DNA of 33,148 bases, from the IMG/VR virus record IMGVR_UViG_3300025450_000076, positions 1-33,148 of that record; one strand, written 5' to 3'. The notes beneath the pieces were generated by a model that worked only from the letters and a program-made list of their open reading frames with translations, ran no database searches and was not told the DNA's origin. Origin of the DNA: a virus. Position numbers and translations under genes: made by a program. This document shows, piece after piece, positions 4,319-24,392 of this stretch (position 1 is the stretch's first letter; every line of letters begins with the position of its first letter).

Positions 4319-5365
4319 ATGGCGGCCTACTACAACGAGATCGACCCATTTGCGGCGCAGTGGCTCCGCAATCTGATCGAAGCGGGACACATAGCAGGGG
4401 GGGGGCACGTCGATGAGCGCGATATCAGGGACATCAAGCCAGCCGAACTTCTGGGATACACCCAGTGCCACTTCTTTGCAGGCCTGGGCGGTTGGTCAAG
4501 GGCTCTGCGCCTTGCAGGATGGGGAGACGACCAAGCGGTGTGGACGGGCTCCTGCCCATGCCAACCTTTCAGCTGCGCAGGCAAAGGAGCAGGGCTTGCT
4601 GACGAGCGGCACCTTTGGCCCCACTTCCACTGGCTGGTCTCCCAGTGCCGCCCTGCAATCGTCTTTGGCGAGCAGGTTGCGTCAAAAGACGGCCTCGCTT
4701 GGCTCGACCTTGTATCGGCTGACCTGGAAGGAGAGGGCTACGCCGTCGGGTCGGCAGATTTGTGCGCTGCGGGCGTCGGTGCTCCGCACATCCGGCAAAG
4801 GCTCTACTGGTGCGCCAAAGACGGGCTGGACAACGGTAACCACCCGCGACTGGAAGGACACGGGATGCGACATCAAGCCGCGCTCGGACGGGACGGAACG
4901 GCTGGACCAGTTGCCGAGGCAGGCCAATCTGGCGAGTTGGCCGACACCCTGCTCCAAGGTGGCGGCGGGAGGGGAATACAAGGACCCGGAGAAGGCGATG
5001 GCGCGGGCTCTGGGTCCGCATGCGAACGACCTGAGGGACTTTGCCGCGATGGCGGGCTGGCCGACCTGCAAGGCCCACGACGGGGAGTTTGGGACTCCGA
5101 TGATGACGGGCAGGCCGATGGAGAAGTCCACGCACCTTGCGACGATCACCAAGCTGGTCTCGTCAGTGTCCGGCCCCGCGCGACTAACGGCGACTGGGCA
5201 TCTGCTGACTGGCTCTTCTGCCGGGATCAAAAGTGGCGGTCAGTTGAGCCCGGCACATTCCCGCTGGCTAATGGGGTTCCCGGACGCGTGGGACGACTGC
5301 GCGCCTACGGCAACGCGATCGTCCCGCAAGTCGCGCAAGCCTTCATAGAGGCCTGCATGGGCTGA
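4319..5365 (+). CDS. dcm: Cytosine-C5 DNA methyltransferase, 348 aa
   Basis: Transfers a methyl group from S-adenosylmethionine to C5 of cytosine in DNA. C5-methyltransferase motifs appear in order. Motif I is FFAGLGGWS at about residue 52. Motif IV is GSCPCQPFS at 77-85, with Cys81 as the expected nucleophile. The motif VI position reads FGEQV instead of the usual ENV. Motif VIII is RQRLYW at 159-164, and motifs IX/X end the protein (AYGNAIVPQVAQAF). The segment between VIII and IX, which should recognise the target, is Gly/Asp-rich and contains two L-A-D repeats, as in other phage enzymes of this type. I start at ATG 4319 behind GGGGGA; an in-frame ATG at 4307 is possible. No partner restriction enzyme is present, so protection against host restriction is likely. 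A second long frame overlaps most of it. Confidence 0.88.
   Translation: MAAYYNEIDPFAAQWLRNLIEAGHIAGGGHVDERDIRDIKPAELLGYTQCHFFAGLGGWSRALRLAGWGDDQAVWTGSCPCQPFSCAGKGAGLADERHLWPHFHWLVSQCRPAIVFGEQVASKDGLAWLDLVSADLEGEGYAVGSADLCAAGVGAPHIRQRLYWCAKDGLDNGNHPRLEGHGMRHQAALGRDGTAGPVAEAGQSGELADTLLQGGGGRGIQGPGEGDGAGSGSACERPEGLCRDGGLADLQGPRRGVWDSDDDGQADGEVHAPCDDHQAGLVSVRPRATNGDWASADWLFCRDQKWRSVEPGTFPLANGVPGRVGRLRAYGNAIVPQVAQAFIEACMG
4413..5348 (+). CDS. Overprinted reading frame inside the methyltransferase gene, 311 aa
   Basis: An open frame of 311 codons shifted by one base relative to the methyltransferase, opening with ATG 4413 (MSAISGTSS). Its product contains segments I remember from proteins annotated as hypothetical in many tailed phages: LSAAQAKEQGLLTSGT, LGSTLYRLTWKERATPSGR, short W-P-T repeats (SWPTPC, GWPTCK) and SGGQLSPAHSRWLMGFP near the end. 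In those phages it also overlaps a methyltransferase frame. Two explanations remain: a genuinely translated overlapping gene, or an artefact conserved only because the methyltransferase is conserved. No strong ribosome binding site precedes ATG 4413. No function is known to me. Confidence 0.45.
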   Translation: MSAISGTSSQPNFWDTPSATSLQAWAVGQGLCALQDGETTKRCGRAPAHANLSAAQAKEQGLLTSGTFGPTSTGWSPSAALQSSLASRLRQKTASLGSTLYRLTWKERATPSGRQICALRASVLRTSGKGSTGAPKTGWTTVTTRDWKDTGCDIKPRSDGTERLDQLPRQANLASWPTPCSKVAAGGEYKDPEKAMARALGPHANDLRDFAAMAGWPTCKAHDGEFGTPMMTGRPMEKSTHLATITKLVSSVSGPARLTATGHLLTGSSAGIKSGGQLSPAHSRWLMGFPDAWDDCAPTATRSSRKSRKPS

Positions 5366-6538: not shown

Positions 6539-8959
6539 ATGGGAAAGAAGCTGGTAGCGGTTCTGGGAGGTGCGGGCCCCCTGGGCAGCGGCGGATCGGG
6601 CGCCAGCGGCAATGTGCTGACGTTTCTGACCACGAAACTGCCCACCGGGACGGCTGGGACCTATTACACGACGGCAGTCAGCGCGTCGTTGACCGGAACC
6701 ACGTTCTCCGTGGCTTCTGGGGGCTTCCCGACGGGCATTACGATGAGCGCGGACGGCGCAATCACCGGCACGCCGTCGGCAGCCGGCGACAGCACGGTCT
6801 ACATCACCGCCACGAACGGAAGTCAGACTCTGACCGCTGGATTCCTGATCAGCATCATGGCCGTTTCCGCCCCCAGCACGGGCGGAGGCGGCACGACTGT
6901 GAATCTGGGGGGCGGCGGGCTGCCGCTGAGCGGAACCGGCAACAGCGGCGGCACCAACAACAACAAAACTCCCCCTGGAGCGTCTGCTCCCCTGACCATC
7001 ACGACCACCAGCGTCCCCGCCGGCAAGGTTGGCACGGCTTACGGCACCGGGACCCCTCCCAAGGTCCAGATTACCGCCAGCACGATGACGGGGACCACCT
7101 TTGCAATCGTCCCCAACCCGAATCCCAAGGTTACCGACAACGGCCTGCCCCCAGGCATCACCCTGAGTGGAGCCGGAGCCCTGACAGGCACGCCAACCGA
7201 CCCAGGGACCTATAAGTTCACCGTCCAGGCTTCGAACGGCACTGGAACGGCGACGGCAACCGCCACCCAGTCCTATTCGTGTTCGGTCTCGACGGCGGCG
7301 GGCACCCCCAGCAACCCGACCACCAAGTCCTCGCCCGAGCTGAATAACTTCGTGCTGTTCCCGGACGGCTACGCGATGGTCGCTGCCAACGGCCTGGCCA
7401 AGGCGGGCGGCGTTGCCGAGTTCTCCGGCCTGTGGACCGCTGGCAAGGACGCGGCGTCCGCCGGCGGCCGGATCGTGGTTGCGGAGGCCACCGGCAAGAT
7501 CTGGGTGGGAACCAACGTCAAGTCCACCTCGGCCTCGCCCTCATGGACCCAGACGGCCAATCTGGGCATGAACTGCAAGAAGGTCCTGACGGACGGCAGC
7601 ACGTTCGTGGTCGTGGGCGACACCGGCATTGCCTATTCGTCTGACGGCGTGTCCTGGGCGACGATTCCGCTGGCCACTTTTCTCAGCACGAATCTGGGTG
7701 GCCAGTTGAGTGGCTTCACCAGCCTGTTCTACCAGCCGGGCCTTACCAAGCCCTGGGTCGTGGTAGGCAGCGGAGCGGCTGGCCAAAAGATCGTGTCGGC
7801 GGGCGCAGCGTTTCCATCCGGTCCCTGGACACCCAGCGGCAATCTGGCCGTCCAGATGTTCCCCAACGCCTTCTGCGGCCTGCCCAATGGCAGCTTGAAC
7901 AGCGGAACCCCCAGCGCGACCTATGCGCCGGACATCAACGGGACTTTCCTGGGCCTGACCGGCTGGACGCACACGGGCGGATGGTTCATGGACTATTCCA
8001 TGACCGGAAACTCTGGTTATCCGGGATACTCCGACCGCTGGGCATATGTGGACACGACGGCTGGCGGCGTCGCGGAAACGCCCAACACGTTCGCGGGCAA
8101 CGCCCCCAACCCCTTCCCGTCCGGCAAGACCAAGTTTGCCTGTCAATCGAACGTTTACGGCGGCTCGCCTGGGATCAGCAGCACCTTGACGTTGCCAAGC
8201 TCAATGGCCGCCAACATCGCGGCAGGGCATATCAACTTCACGCTGGGCGGCAGCGTGGTTTCGGCGTCAGCGAGCGGCACCTACCACTGCCAACTGAATA
8301 TCAAGCTGGTCTGCTATGATTCGACGGGAGCCACGATCTCCACGCCGACCTTCTCCAGCGACCAGAACTCCAAGAACTCCTGGACGGCCTTCTCGATCAC
8401 CGGAACGCTGCCGACCAACACCTCCAGCGTCAAGATCCAGGTCCTGGGAACGGTCGATGCCCCGAGTTTGATGGTCATGGGCGTTGCGGACTTCTCCCTG
8501 TCGTTCGTGGACTCGACCGGCGCGGATGTGACCGGTGCGGCCGCCGGCGGCAAGGACTGCGGTGTGGTCGCCGGCCAGAGCTTTGGCATCGCCCAGTCTG
8601 CCGATCTGGTTACCTGGACGGACCATTCCAAGGGGGCGGCTTACGGCAACATCGGGCTGGCCATCTCGGCGGTGGACGCCAAGACCATGCTGGTTGCGAC
8701 CGACAAGAAGGGCTCCACGGTCGAGCTGGAGGTGTCCAGCGATTACGGCATGAACTGGACAGGGCACAGCAACCCGGCCCGCAAGAACGACCCGACCAGC
8801 GGCAATACGTTCTTCGACATCTCGTATGGGCGAATCTGGCTGGGCACTGGCCAGTATCTCAGCTGGACCGACGACGGAGGCACCACCTGGGGCGGCCCCG
8901 TGTGGTTCACGCCCTATGACGGCAAGGCCAGGAGCCCCCAGGCCATTTGCGGGCTGTGA
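6539..8959 (+). CDS. Large tail-fibre / receptor-binding protein with Ig-like domains, 806 aa
   Basis: Two putative immunoglobulin-like domains of the He_PIG kind are visible. One is at about residues 28-105 (FPTGITMSADGAITGTPSAAG), the other at about 150-250 (LPPGITLSGAGALTGTPTDPG). Between and after them are Gly/Asn/Thr linkers. The rest contains BNR/Asp-box-like blades (SSDGVSWATIP, SSDYGMNWTG, TDDGGTTWGG) typical of beta-propellers. A beta-sandwich-like part at about residues 560-660 might bind carbohydrate. No signal peptide is present, consistent with a virion protein. I infer host-surface recognition. It starts two bases past the previous stop. Confidence 0.7.
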   Translation: MGKKLVAVLGGAGPLGSGGSGASGNVLTFLTTKLPTGTAGTYYTTAVSASLTGTTFSVASGGFPTGITMSADGAITGTPSAAGDSTVYITATNGSQTLTAGFLISIMAVSAPSTGGGGTTVNLGGGGLPLSGTGNSGGTNNNKTPPGASAPLTITTTSVPAGKVGTAYGTGTPPKVQITASTMTGTTFAIVPNPNPKVTDNGLPPGITLSGAGALTGTPTDPGTYKFTVQASNGTGTATATATQSYSCSVSTAAGTPSNPTTKSSPELNNFVLFPDGYAMVAANGLAKAGGVAEFSGLWTAGKDAASAGGRIVVAEATGKIWVGTNVKSTSASPSWTQTANLGMNCKKVLTDGSTFVVVGDTGIAYSSDGVSWATIPLATFLSTNLGGQLSGFTSLFYQPGLTKPWVVVGSGAAGQKIVSAGAAFPSGPWTPSGNLAVQMFPNAFCGLPNGSLNSGTPSATYAPDINGTFLGLTGWTHTGGWFMDYSMTGNSGYPGYSDRWAYVDTTAGGVAETPNTFAGNAPNPFPSGKTKFACQSNVYGGSPGISSTLTLPSSMAANIAAGHINFTLGGSVVSASASGTYHCQLNIKLVCYDSTGATISTPTFSSDQNSKNSWTAFSITGTLPTNTSSVKIQVLGTVDAPSLMVMGVADFSLSFVDSTGADVTGAAAGGKDCGVVAGQSFGIAQSADLVTWTDHSKGAAYGNIGLAISAVDAKTMLVATDKKGSTVELEVSSDYGMNWTGHSNPARKNDPTSGNTFFDISYGRIWLGTGQYLSWTDDGGTTWGGPVWFTPYDGKARSPQAICGL

Positions 8960-14614: not shown

Positions 14615-15622
14615 ATGACGCTGGATTCGTCCACAGTCGTCGAGGATACCGAGGCCCTCACAGGCACGGCGGCTTCGGAAAACGACATTTCTTCAGACGT
14701 ATCGTCGGAACCGTCTACCGACACGGGCTCCACGGAGTCCACGAGCACCGAGTCAGACGTAAAGCCCAAGTCCCTGCTGGAACTCGCGGAAGAGGCCCTG
14801 AAGGAGACAAACGGCGGGGACCCGTCATCCCAGGGAAAGGAAACCAAGACCGAGACGGAAGCGGAAGTCAAGGCAGAGACCAAGACCGATGCGACCAACA
14901 CGGATGCGGACGTCCCCTTTCATAAGCACCCTCGCTGGCAGCAAGTTATCAGCGAGAACAAGGCCCTGAAGGAAAAGGCCCAAGTCGTAGATCAACTGGT
15001 GAACTTCGCCAAAGCGAACCACATGGAGGTTCAGGATCTGGATGCGGGGGCACAACTGGTTGCACTGGTTAGGACCAATCCTGCCAAAGCACTGGAAGTC
15101 ATCGCCCCTTTGTACCAGCACCTGGCAGCCAAGTCCGGCGCGGTTCTCCCAAACGATCTGAAGGACAGGGTAGACAAGGGCTTTGTGGATCAGGCCACCG
15201 CCGAGGAGCTGGCACGAGCCAGGGCCCAGACGCAGTGGAACGATGAGCAGGCCAGGCTAAGGGCCCAGCGCGACGCTGAGGCCAACCACGCCCAGACCGC
15301 CGTCCAGATCCAACAGGGTGTGAACGATTGGGAGACCAGGCAGAGGGCCACCGATCCCGACTTTGAGGCCAAGGCCAAGCCGATTGAGCGCACGATCAAG
15401 GCGCTGCTGTTCGAAAAGGGCCAGCCCAGGAACCAGGCGGAAGCGATCGCGCTGGCTGATGAAGCCAAGAAGATCGTCGAGGCGGAGTTCAAGAGGCTGA
15501 ACTTCAACAGCAAGCCGGCGATCAAGCCGACGACCGGCGGGGGAACGAACAAGAATCTGACCACCGAGCCCAAGAGCCTGATGGAGGCTGCAATGTTGGG
15601 GCTGCGGATGGCACACGGATAA
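14615..15622 (+). CDS. Capsid scaffolding protein candidate, 335 aa
   Basis: Position directly before the major capsid gene and composition fit a scaffold. The first ~100 residues are Ser/Thr/Glu/Asp-rich and disordered. They are followed by long charged helices (WQQVISENKALKEKAQVVDQL; ATAEELARARAQTQWNDEQARLRAQRDAEANHAQ), probably coiled coils, and a short C-terminal helix (SLMEAAMLGLRMA) of the sort that binds coat protein. No protease signature is present. AGGA precedes ATG 14615. Confidence 0.75.
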   Translation: MTLDSSTVVEDTEALTGTAASENDISSDVSSEPSTDTGSTESTSTESDVKPKSLLELAEEALKETNGGDPSSQGKETKTETEAEVKAETKTDATNTDADVPFHKHPRWQQVISENKALKEKAQVVDQLVNFAKANHMEVQDLDAGAQLVALVRTNPAKALEVIAPLYQHLAAKSGAVLPNDLKDRVDKGFVDQATAEELARARAQTQWNDEQARLRAQRDAEANHAQTAVQIQQGVNDWETRQRATDPDFEAKAKPIERTIKALLFEKGQPRNQAEAIALADEAKKIVEAEFKRLNFNSKPAIKPTTGGGTNKNLTTEPKSLMEAAMLGLRMAHG

Positions 15623-19167: not shown

Positions 19168-21294
19168 ATGGCCGGCCAGAGTGAGATGATCCCCTACGCA
19201 GTGTTCTCGGACTTCCGGGGCGGCCTGGATGCGCGCCGCATGCCGATCAACGGCGTGCCGGGCACCTTGCAGACGGCCACCAACGTCCTGGTCAGCCGCG
19301 GCGGCGAGCTGGAGAAGCGCAAGGCCTTTGTGCCCCAGATCACCCTGCCTGACGGGACGTTCGGGCTGTGGTCGTGCGCGGGCAACCTGTATACGTTTGG
19401 CAGCGCCACGGCCCCCACGATGCCCAACGGGGTCATCTACCAGCAGCTGGTCCACCCCACGGGCGCCACCATGCAGCGCCTGGTGGACGCGGCGAACTTT
19501 GCAGGGAAAATCTACGCCGTCGCCCAGTTCGTGGACGGCAGCATCCACCACTTCTACGACGGCGCCATCATCCCCTTCTGGAGGGACGGCACCTATGCCG
19601 ACGCGTCGCCGGCGAACTTCCCCAACCAGATCAACAACAACATCCAGCTGGCCGCCTATCTGGCGGCGGTGATCGACGCCAGCCCCGCCTATTCGGCGCG
19701 GGCCCAGGTCAACTCGGTGATCGTCAGTGCCCAGGTGCCGGGGACGGCCTTCACCTATTCGGCCTCGGTAGCGTCGGGCGGCACGGGGACCACCATTGCC
19801 GTCAATCTGGTAACCGCCAACGTGGCAGCCTCAGCAGGCTCCCAGGCCGTGGCCACCATGACCGTGGCCAGCGGCTACAACGCGGCCACCGACTATGTGA
19901 CCGGCATCACCGCCGGCCCGACCGGTCCCCAGCTCCTGGGGGCTCCTGTCGCCTGGCAGGGCAACGCCGCCGACACCGCGACCGCCATTGCCACCCAGAT
20001 CAACCGCTGGGGCTCCCAGTTCTCGGCCACGGCCACGGGCGCCGTGGTCTCAATCACCGGGCCCATGATCGGCACCGCCTTGAACGGAACCGAGCTGGTG
20101 GCCACCGTGGACGGCCAGATGACGCTGGGGGCCATGACCAGCTTCATGGGCGGCTCCGGCGCCGTCGCCCCTGTCGCCCAAGTCGTCCAGTTCGACATCG
20201 ACGGCCCCTACACCGAGGCCGCCGTCTACCAGATTCTGGTTGGCAGTCTGACCGCTACGAAAGCAGCCACCCTAACCAGCAAGGGCACGGTCATCAAGGC
20301 GCACCGCCAGAAGATCTATGCGGGCAACCAGTCCGTCATGGAGTTCTGCGCGATCAACAGCCCGACCTACTGGACGCCGCTGGCCACCGGCGACACGACG
20401 AACCCGCCCGGCGCAGGCTTTGTGGACTTGGCCACCAACGGCTTTGGATCGGACCCGATCACGGCGATCTCGACGCTGAACCAGTATCTGGTCTTCTTCG
20501 CCCAGCACGGCGTCCAGGTGTGGAGCATCGACCCGGACCCCGCCAAGAACGCGCTTGCCCAGCCCATCGAGAACATGGGCACCCGCTTCACGCACTCAGT
20601 GCAGCCGTTCGGCGGCATGGATATCGGCGTGCTGTTCCTGCATGATTCCGGCATCCGGGCCATCAAGCCGCAGATGATCACCGGCTATGTGTCGGCCAAC
20701 GACGCGGGCTTCCCGGTGGATCCCCTGATCACGGCGGACCTGGCGGCGCTGAATCAGACGGACATCAACAACATCCGCAGTCTGGTCACGCCAAAGGACT
20801 ATGCCTACTGGTTGTCCATTGGGTCCAAGATTTACGTCCTGAGCTATCACCCCAATGCCCAGATCCAGGCGTGGTCGGTCTTCCAGCCCGGCTTCACGGT
20901 GGACAGCATGGTGGTCAACGACCAACAGGTCTGGGTGCGCGACACCAACAACCAGCTCTACCTGTATGGGGGAACCGATGGCAACACCTACGATTCTTGC
21001 CCCGTGGAGGTGGCTACCCAGTTTGTGGACGGCGGCTCGCCGTCGGCTTTCAAGCGACTTCAGTCTTTTGACGCTGCCGTTCTGGGGACATGGGACGTGG
21101 AGGTGATGGTCGATCCGCGCAAGAACAAGGTCGTCCAGCGCATCGGCCAGATCGACGAGTCCACCTTCCGTGGGGGCGCGGTTACCGTGACCGCGCGGTG
21201 CAACCACATGGCGTTGCGCTTCACCAGCGCCTATCCGGGGCCGGCCACGATCAGCTCGGCCATCCTGCACTTCGACCCGCAGAACGTCTCTTAA
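19168..21294 (+). CDS. Tail nozzle protein, T7 gp12-like candidate, 708 aa
   Basis: A strong AAGGAG precedes ATG 19168. The N-terminal segment (YAVFSDFRGGLDARRMPING, then LQTATNVLVSRGGELEKRKAF) matches the beginning of podovirus tail nozzle proteins I remember, which open with a short strand reading D-F-x-G-G-L. The body is beta-rich, as expected of a propeller-like nozzle. It contains an inserted Ala/Thr/Gly-rich region (about residues 185-345) that may be an Ig-like decoration. Order after the adaptor gene supports the assignment. Confidence 0.68.
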   Translation: MAGQSEMIPYAVFSDFRGGLDARRMPINGVPGTLQTATNVLVSRGGELEKRKAFVPQITLPDGTFGLWSCAGNLYTFGSATAPTMPNGVIYQQLVHPTGATMQRLVDAANFAGKIYAVAQFVDGSIHHFYDGAIIPFWRDGTYADASPANFPNQINNNIQLAAYLAAVIDASPAYSARAQVNSVIVSAQVPGTAFTYSASVASGGTGTTIAVNLVTANVAASAGSQAVATMTVASGYNAATDYVTGITAGPTGPQLLGAPVAWQGNAADTATAIATQINRWGSQFSATATGAVVSITGPMIGTALNGTELVATVDGQMTLGAMTSFMGGSGAVAPVAQVVQFDIDGPYTEAAVYQILVGSLTATKAATLTSKGTVIKAHRQKIYAGNQSVMEFCAINSPTYWTPLATGDTTNPPGAGFVDLATNGFGSDPITAISTLNQYLVFFAQHGVQVWSIDPDPAKNALAQPIENMGTRFTHSVQPFGGMDIGVLFLHDSGIRAIKPQMITGYVSANDAGFPVDPLITADLAALNQTDINNIRSLVTPKDYAYWLSIGSKIYVLSYHPNAQIQAWSVFQPGFTVDSMVVNDQQVWVRDTNNQLYLYGGTDGNTYDSCPVEVATQFVDGGSPSAFKRLQSFDAAVLGTWDVEVMVDPRKNKVVQRIGQIDESTFRGGAVTVTARCNHMALRFTSAYPGPATISSAILHFDPQNVS

Positions 21295-22952: not shown

Positions 22953-24392
22953 ATGGCAGCCTATGACAACCCTTATTACAGCGGAAACGACGTCGCGGGA
23001 CAGACCGGCGGCATCGGCGGGGCGCTGGCTGACATCTTCAAGGCCATGCCCAGCCCGCTGGCTATGGCGCAGATGCAGCAGCAGGCGCAGACTGCGGCGG
23101 CGCAGAGGGACCTGCTTGCCCAGCAGGCTAACTACCAGAAGGCCCAGGCTGATGCTCTTGGCCAGAAGACACCTGCCGAGATCGCCGAGCTGATTGCCCG
23201 GACAGGCGCGTCCAACGCCCAGTCAAGCATGTTCGGCCACCAGGCCGGGCTTTACGATGCCCAGGGCAGGAACGCGGATGCCGAGGCTCAACTGACCGGC
23301 ACAAAGAACAACCAGCTCCAAGACTCCTACAACAACATCGAAGGCGCCGTAAACGGCAACAACCAGGGGGCCATCGCCAAGGCGGCCCTGGGCAGTGGCC
23401 AGCTCTCCGCCGCTTCCAGCGTCGGCCAGATGGCCTACGCCAACCAGAGCGACAATCTTACCCCCGACCAGATCGCCAGGCACATCGCGGCGGCTGGACA
23501 TCCGATCACGCCCGACCAGTCGATTGACCTTGGAGGCCAGCAGTCCGCTCGAGACTTCGATATCCTCAAGGCCCAGTCCTCGACTTATGGCAGGACATAT
23601 GCCGCGGACGAGGCCACCAGGCGCCTTCGTGAGAAGCAGCGCATCGACGCCCTTATGCCCGTAATGAAGCAGATCGACTCACAGGCTGCCCAGGCCCCTG
23701 GCATCGCCATGCAGCTGAACAACCTCGAGTCGGCCTTCAACGACTCCAGCGCTGGTGCCGACGCCAACATCAAGAACCAGTTGCTGGCGCTGGGCAACGT
23801 GTCTGGGTTGCTGTCTGACGACCAGAAGAAGGAGCTGGCTGCCAATGAAACGGCAGCCAAGACGGCGGCCTCTCTGGTGCAGATGATGGCCATGGGACAG
23901 AAGGGCTCACTGACTGGGAACGTGATCGGACTGGACAGCAAGACCGTCCCACAGCTCATCACCTCCCCGCAAGGCAGGGCGCAGATCCTGGCAGAGATGC
24001 GCCAAAAACTGGTTGACTTGCCATCGCAACAGAAGAAGGCAATGACCGACTTCTATGCCGCGAACGGCAACTACGTGAATGGCGAGACCGGTCAAGATTT
24101 CACCTCGGGCTTTAAGGTGCCCACCATGGCAGAGGTCCCCAAGGTTGGGCCCCAAACGCCCGCTGCCGGGGCCGCGCCCTCTGGCGTTCTGGCGACCGCT
24201 GCCGCTGCCTCAACTGCCTCCCCTGCCGCCGCTCCGGCACCGGCTACCCAGCCGGCGGCGGCCTCTATGTCCAAGGAAGACGTGCGGCAAAGCATCGTCA
24301 ACGCTCGGGTGGCAATCAAGGACCACCCCGAGCTCAAGCAGGCCATCCTGGCCAAAATGCAGCAAGCCGGCATTGATACGAGTGGTGTCTGA
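22953..24392 (+). CDS. Putative internal / ejection protein, 479 aa
   Basis: GAGG precedes ATG 22953 (MAAYDNPYYSGND). The N-terminal ~90 residues carry a Gln/Ala-rich helix (AMAQMQQQAQTAAAQRDLLAQQANYQKAQ). The central part is helical with conserved-looking stretches (ALGNVSGLLSDDQKKELAANE). A Pro/Ala linker (about 405-438) leads to a small C-terminal helical domain (SKEDVRQSIVNARVAIKDHPELK). No lytic transglycosylase motif is visible. The TGA overlaps the next ATG, so it is translated with the following protein. Confidence 0.62.
   Translation: MAAYDNPYYSGNDVAGQTGGIGGALADIFKAMPSPLAMAQMQQQAQTAAAQRDLLAQQANYQKAQADALGQKTPAEIAELIARTGASNAQSSMFGHQAGLYDAQGRNADAEAQLTGTKNNQLQDSYNNIEGAVNGNNQGAIAKAALGSGQLSAASSVGQMAYANQSDNLTPDQIARHIAAAGHPITPDQSIDLGGQQSARDFDILKAQSSTYGRTYAADEATRRLREKQRIDALMPVMKQIDSQAAQAPGIAMQLNNLESAFNDSSAGADANIKNQLLALGNVSGLLSDDQKKELAANETAAKTAASLVQMMAMGQKGSLTGNVIGLDSKTVPQLITSPQGRAQILAEMRQKLVDLPSQQKKAMTDFYAANGNYVNGETGQDFTSGFKVPTMAEVPKVGPQTPAAGAAPSGVLATAAAASTASPAAAPAPATQPAAASMSKEDVRQSIVNARVAIKDHPELKQAILAKMQQAGIDTSGV

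Follow-up and report, generated by a model that had tools for sequence, protein, structure and literature searches.

The window, i.e. the whole stretch of DNA analysed here, is an IMG/VR tailed-phage record of 33,148 bases, and an identical stretch also occurs in the record IMGVR_UViG_3300006071_000034. Its gene neighbours include the terminase small subunit, the portal and the major head protein, and the window also contains long ORFs without a PHROG match (6539-8959, 806 aa; 14615-15622, 335 aa; 19168-21294, 708 aa; 22953-24392, 479 aa). The locus studied here consists of a C5-cytosine methyltransferase ORF (alpha) and of a second ORF (beta) which is nested in it in the +1 frame (Table 1). 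The second frame had been pointed out by the first-pass annotation as 311 codons long, and we found it uninterrupted over this length. The L-A-D repeats of alpha and the W-P-T repeats of beta, described there as the same DNA, do coincide: LADT at 4937 is read in the +1 frame as WPTP, LADL at 5057 as WPTC and LDNG at 4826 as WTTV. The ending given for beta, SGGQLSPAHSRWLMGFP, had to be extended, as the protein runs on as DAWDDCAPTATRSSRKSRKPS, 21 residues further. The description of this protein type as widespread in phages agrees with its match to PHROG 1008 and with tblastn matches of beta to 215 GenBank phage records, 106 of which cover 80% or more of beta.

Table 1. Features of the methyltransferase locus, in coordinates of the window.
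Feature	Position	Strand	Basis
Alpha, C5-cytosine methyltransferase ORF, 348 aa	4319..5365	+	PF00145 1e-11; phrog_363 9e-82; AF2 model vs M.HhaI, VIA Z 14.2
Alpha motif II/III segment (AYYNEIDPFAAQWL...GHVDERDI), ahead of motif I	4322..4462	+	hhalign, VIA
Purine run AGGGGGGGGG, possible ribosome-binding site	4396..4405	+	7 nt before beta ATG (4413); direct reading
Beta, nested +1-frame ORF, 311 aa; putative target-recognition/motif IX subunit	4413..5348	+	phrog_1008 1.3e-31; 0 stops in 176 loci; synonymous constraint on alpha
Alpha motif I (FFAGLGG)	4472..4492	+	
Alpha motif IV (PCQPFS), catalytic Cys	4556..4573	+	
Beta conserved core, residues 93-296	4689..5300	+	Codon-position pattern, identity; synonymous constraint on alpha 0.33-0.62
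Alpha motif VIII (GAPHIRQRLYW)	4778..4810	+	
Beta W-P-T repeat region, residues 136-250; putative target-recognition domain	4818..5162	+	Repeats at 4827, 4938, 5058
Alpha 'L-A-D' variable region, residues 170-290; G/R/D/A-rich, predicted disordered	4826..5188	+	pLDDT, substitution counts
Beta motif IX-like element GGQLSPAHSRWLMGFPDAWDD	5235..5297	+	hhalign to motif IX of single-frame enzymes
Alpha motif X (RAYGNAIVPQVA)	5300..5335	+	

Alpha has the catalytic fold of a C5-cytosine methyltransferase together with motif I, the PCQ of motif IV, the RxR of motif VIII and motif X. The AF2 model, which was confident in the catalytic part and had a pLDDT below 50 at residues 173-282, superimposed on 2i9k (an M.HhaI variant) with an rmsd of 2.4 over 166 residues. 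The fold of the catalytic part is common to alpha and the one-chain enzymes M.HhaI and M.HaeIII, as are motifs I, IV, VIII and X; alpha differs from them in that it has neither motif IX nor a folded recognition domain, and in that its II/III segment lies ahead of motif I. This unusual motif order (positions 4322-4492 of the window) was apparent in two comparisons: hhalign paired residue 2 of alpha with residue 25 of enzymes with the canonical order and left motif I as an insertion, and VIA paired residue 1 with residue 34 of HhaI. The first-pass annotation had credited this frame with all C5 motifs. We found that motifs I-VIII and X are present, whereas the canonical motif IX is absent from the alpha chain, and an IX-like sequence lies in the +1 frame.

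The conserved core of beta comprises GSTLYRLTWK..TPSGR..LRAS, the W-P-T repeats, LTGSSAG and the motif IX-like element, and its C-terminal block LNPxHSRWLMGxPxxWDD is missing from alpha. In profile-profile alignment the window-type betas were matched along 203 columns (99.8%, E 1.4e-27) to the nested ORFs of the Paenibacillus-phage-Lily-type enzymes, and the ends of the two beta families paired in hhalign (at 96.0% with E 3.8e-9 and at 90.2% with E 1.5e-6) with LNPxFVEWMMGLPxGWVTD, a block of the single-frame actinophage enzymes. When the actinophage enzymes themselves are aligned to M.HhaI (E 4e-29), the block and motif X correspond to motifs IX and X, respectively. These alignments indicate that motif IX is carried by beta and is homologous to that of the single-frame enzymes, with the homology spanning only about 20-30 residues. 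Beta had no match in Pfam (E up to 1) or NCBIfam. A sequence search of the PDB with beta profiles gave none for the window family and only a chance-level match (E 0.32) for the Lily type. The AF2 model of beta alone was poor (pLDDT 61.6, pTM 0.27) and no fold match was obtained for it, the Foldseek matches of such a low-confidence model being meaningless.

The length of the beta ORF by itself is not significant in this GC-rich window and becomes overwhelming only when the relatives are considered. An equally long +1 ORF appeared in 7.5% of the synonymous-codon shuffles of alpha (P = 0.075), and the single-window ORF statistics were therefore dropped as a proof of beta. The first set of relatives comprised 87 loci after the alpha scan, one of which repeated the window, leaving 86 unique loci (80 chosen by alpha motifs, 3 by beta in IMG/VR and 3 from annotated phages), and a full-length +1 beta ORF was found in every one of them. 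Among 46 Kagunavirus-type loci the beta frame was interrupted in one (L120), by a single in-frame TAA with alpha intact; the fragment of another locus (L140) was too short to tell. When 176 distinct loci were taken as representatives with less than 90% identity, no stops were observed in the beta span versus 698 ± 16 expected from synonymous shuffles of alpha; since this set holds beta-picked bacterial loci and omits the broken ones, the unbiased figure for openness is the alpha-picked one. Both frames were also intact in 78 of 80 beta-picked bacterial loci (Pseudomonadota and others), which had been taken from 192 matches. In L164 and L189 alpha is broken by one in-frame TGA each while beta is intact. 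These two loci and L120 may represent decaying prophages or sequencing errors; for L189, which comes from an insect symbiont, prophage decay is a possibility. The first-pass annotation had named frequent stops in frame two as a refutation and had proposed to look for a member in which frame two is kept although the methyltransferase is disrupted: such stops turned out to be nearly absent, and such members are L164 and L189.

The openness of the +1 frame bears on the possibility that beta is a conserved artefact, that is, a frame kept open and similar merely by GC-rich codon usage and the conservation of the methyltransferase. The result for the window alone and the general rarity of +1 stops at high GC would fit such an origin. 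However, it was the shuffles preserving alpha together with its codon usage that predicted the 698 stops, none of which was seen, and the pattern persisted in phages of 38-60% GC, so that a simple GC artefact was rejected. In addition, as described below, the constraint ends where beta ends and the variable region is conserved in beta and not in alpha. With these results combined, we consider it almost certain that the artefact explanation is wrong.

Selection on the two frames was assessed in two ways that the first-pass annotation had also recommended, i.e. by synonymous-site conservation and by substitution analysis of both frames. For the former, codons with a conserved amino acid among 178 distinct alphas were used, and codon identity was compared with the usage of each gene itself. 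The normalised synonymous conservation of alpha was nearly nil outside beta (0.057 before it and 0.031 after it). Within beta it was 0.109 at codons 33-70, 0.263 at codons 71-110, 0.47-0.55 at codons 111-170, 0.33-0.37 in the recognition region, 0.62 at codons 291-315 and 0.45 at codons 316-342, amounting to 0.26-0.62 past codon 70. The step in the synonymous constraint on alpha coincides with the start and the stop of beta. As an internal control, the single-frame actinophage enzymes had no such excess around motifs IX and X (0.033 and 0.070).

The substitution test, carried out on 67 close pairs, revealed a division of the overlap by region. In the region preceding beta and in the N-terminal part of the overlap the third codon position changed 3.3 to 4 times faster than the first, as in an ordinary alpha gene. 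In the variable region alpha codon positions 1, 2 and 3 changed at 0.218, 0.076 and 0.065, respectively; the fast position is the first one of alpha and therefore the third one of beta. Codon changes in this region were 640 synonymous and 335 non-synonymous in beta versus 102 and 846 in alpha, which implies that in these close pairs beta is under purifying selection in the variable region and alpha is not. The overlap with motif X evolved in the alpha-like manner again, and the alignment of distant relatives in the beta frame gave the same regional division. Because the variable-region DNA evolves as beta and not as alpha, the best reading is that the 'L-A-D' region of alpha is a by-product of the 'W-P-T' region of beta, and conversely some 60 residues at the start of beta and some 15 at its end resemble by-products of alpha. 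The second frame was under codon-phase selection within its own span only, as is demanded of a genuine overlapping gene. These results demonstrate that both frames are protein-coding and under purifying selection, which is divided between them by region, and that beta is a real, selected and widely conserved overlapping gene.

A +1-coded recognition region was also encountered in other phage lineages. Lily-type beta matched 137 phage records (tblastn), and motif IX was located in the +1 frame relative to alpha in 47 of the 47 resolved Lily-type loci versus frame 0 in 28 of the 28 resolved actinophage-type loci; the frame was assigned by a pattern search that left 78 further loci unresolved and 7 without a motif IV match. 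In the actinophage type (L223-L302) motifs IX and X evolve as frame 0, and the variable region evolves as +1 (436/229 versus 80/590). Therefore, a +1-coded recognition region is common to all three groups, and actinophage-type loci may also contain a nested ORF, without motif IX. Motif IX accompanies the +1 recognition region in two of the three groups, those of the proteobacterial and the Firmicutes phages, but not in that of the actinophages.

The sequences around the beta start favour independent translation. An in-frame beta ATG with a Shine-Dalgarno match of at least 4 nt was present in 81% of the loci compared to 23% in the shuffled null. In many relatives this match is supplied by an AGG codon for the Arg of alpha's VDxRSI, just 5' of a frequently used beta start, and AGG accounted for 38% of the codons at this Arg versus 8% elsewhere. 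Alpha, in turn, remains open across the variable region: in 62 beta-picked bacterial loci only one alpha-frame stop (in L164) was seen there, although selection on beta alone would have let 183 ± 11 accumulate, which implies that both frames are translated. An alternative would be a single chain made by programmed frameshifting, with the recognition region and motif IX read in +1 between a frame-0 part up to motif VIII and a frame-0 motif X. Such a chimera would restore the canonical motif order, and the return of the actinophage motif IX to frame 0 behind a recognition region that is still +1-coded could be seen in the same light. Yet frameshifting would not require alpha to stay open in the recognition region, the +1 constraint covers motifs IV-VIII as well, beta possesses its own ATG and Shine-Dalgarno match, and two shifts would be needed. 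We therefore regard a frameshifted single chain as highly improbable.

Very probably, judging by the sequence evidence, the two overlapping frames of the locus encode a single C5-cytosine DNA methyltransferase made of two polypeptides. Alpha, in frame 0, would provide the catalytic and S-adenosylmethionine-binding domain with motifs I-VIII and with motif X as its C-terminal helix, and beta, starting in the +1 frame from its own ATG inside alpha, would contribute the target-recognition segment with the W-P-T-P repeats and motif IX. In one-chain C5 enzymes motif IX organises the recognition domain. DNA methylation would require the association of the two chains; where alpha lies over the recognition region of beta, it would act as a spacer with a sequence imposed by beta, and the first about 60 residues of beta together with its tail would be dictated by alpha. 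We infer that alpha and beta associate physically, that beta is needed for activity and that it sets the specificity. Orphan phage methyltransferases generally give protection from host restriction, and the enzyme probably protects the phage DNA in this way.

The first-pass annotation had left the choice between a neglected overlapping gene and a conserved artefact, and had compared the second frame with a hypothetical protein. The gene is upheld by the constraint, the stops and the substitutions; an unrelated hypothetical protein is not, and beta is most likely the missing part of the enzyme, namely its recognition domain and motif IX. If beta were real but unrelated to the enzyme activity, for example a regulator or an anti-restriction factor overprinted on the methyltransferase gene, this could account for its lack of a recognised fold when modelled alone and for the loci in which alpha is broken and beta is kept. 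However, beta carries the very motif IX that is missing from alpha, its coding region occupies exactly the place that the recognition domain has in the genes of one-chain enzymes, alpha and beta co-occur in nearly all of the beta-picked bacterial loci, and M.EcoHK31I offers a precedent. An unrelated function of beta is thus unlikely.

In M.EcoHK31I the small ORF sits inside the large one in a different frame, and beta is likewise nested in alpha, here and in the relatives. Of the two polypeptides of this C5 enzyme (YGGCCR), the larger bears motifs I-VIII and X and the smaller bears motif IX (Lee, Kam and Shaw 1995, cited in PMC3404938), and alpha, with I-VIII and X and no IX, and beta, with its IX, correspond to this arrangement as published. 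The recognition region differs in its apparent location, being in the small chain here and predicted in the large chain of M.EcoHK31I (PMC3404938). Another difference is that no cognate restriction enzyme was present in the neighbourhoods of the four E. coli prophage relatives inspected, which are few loci. The locus is a variant of the M.EcoHK31I kind and not a new kind. The split with motif IX in a second chain has been known from M.EcoHK31I since 1995. It has also been described that fragments of one-chain C5 enzymes can reassemble into an active enzyme (PMC3404938). The split methyltransferase M.AquI resembles the present enzyme in having two chains, the second of which contains a part of the variable region, motif IX and also motif X (Karreman and de Waard 1990, cited in PMC3404938), but here motif X belongs to alpha and beta is fully nested. 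A second protein out of frame within a phage methylase gene is also known from the ShiLan element, in which an HNH endonuclease is hidden as a mobile insertion in some phages (PMC11855218). By contrast, beta overlaps the conserved motifs of the catalytic domain, and essentially none of the members examined lacks it. An HNH insertion of the ShiLan type was rejected: beta had no Pfam match, spans the conserved motifs IV-X and occurred throughout the first set of loci.

We lean slightly towards a broader proposal, according to which several phage lineages code the C5 recognition region in a nested +1 ORF and beta is a separable, fast-evolving and swappable specificity subunit, with the recognition domain in the small chain. 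If this is true, swapping beta could retarget a constant catalytic subunit, a role comparable to that of HsdS in type I systems. Should beta indeed be the specificity subunit, an enzyme cloned or assayed from the annotated gene alone would be inactive, and a specificity assigned from the variable region of the annotated frame would be the reading of a by-product. In addition, the locus represents a clean natural case in which the two proteins of one enzyme would share DNA with the constraint split by region, and this makes it useful for testing the detection of overlapping genes.

The distribution of these loci suggests that the nested-frame split is a common design of phage methyltransferases, which is hidden because annotation pipelines usually retain one of two overlapping ORFs. 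Most records annotate the methyltransferase only and not beta, and for the four inspected E. coli prophage copies, in RefSeq-annotated genomes, alpha alone is annotated. Beta is annotated exceptionally, as 'Mte8-like protein' in Kagunavirus and as 'g62 internal gene' in phage Lily, and in a Xanthomonas phage two overlapping 'DNA methyltransferase' genes are annotated. A literature search for the name 'Mte8-like protein' gave no functional paper. Likewise, no paper on the overlap in phages was found in a search that left most subscription journals outside its reach, which is weak evidence of novelty. In the prophage of E. coli Ec1117 (L383, 2863-4032) the methyltransferase appears in RefSeq as two incomplete pseudogene pieces. 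A Pseudodesulfovibrio genome bin (L146, 4849-6760) contains tandem C5 methyltransferases, one of the window type with beta and a second with the canonical motif order and a +1 beta-like ORF of its own.
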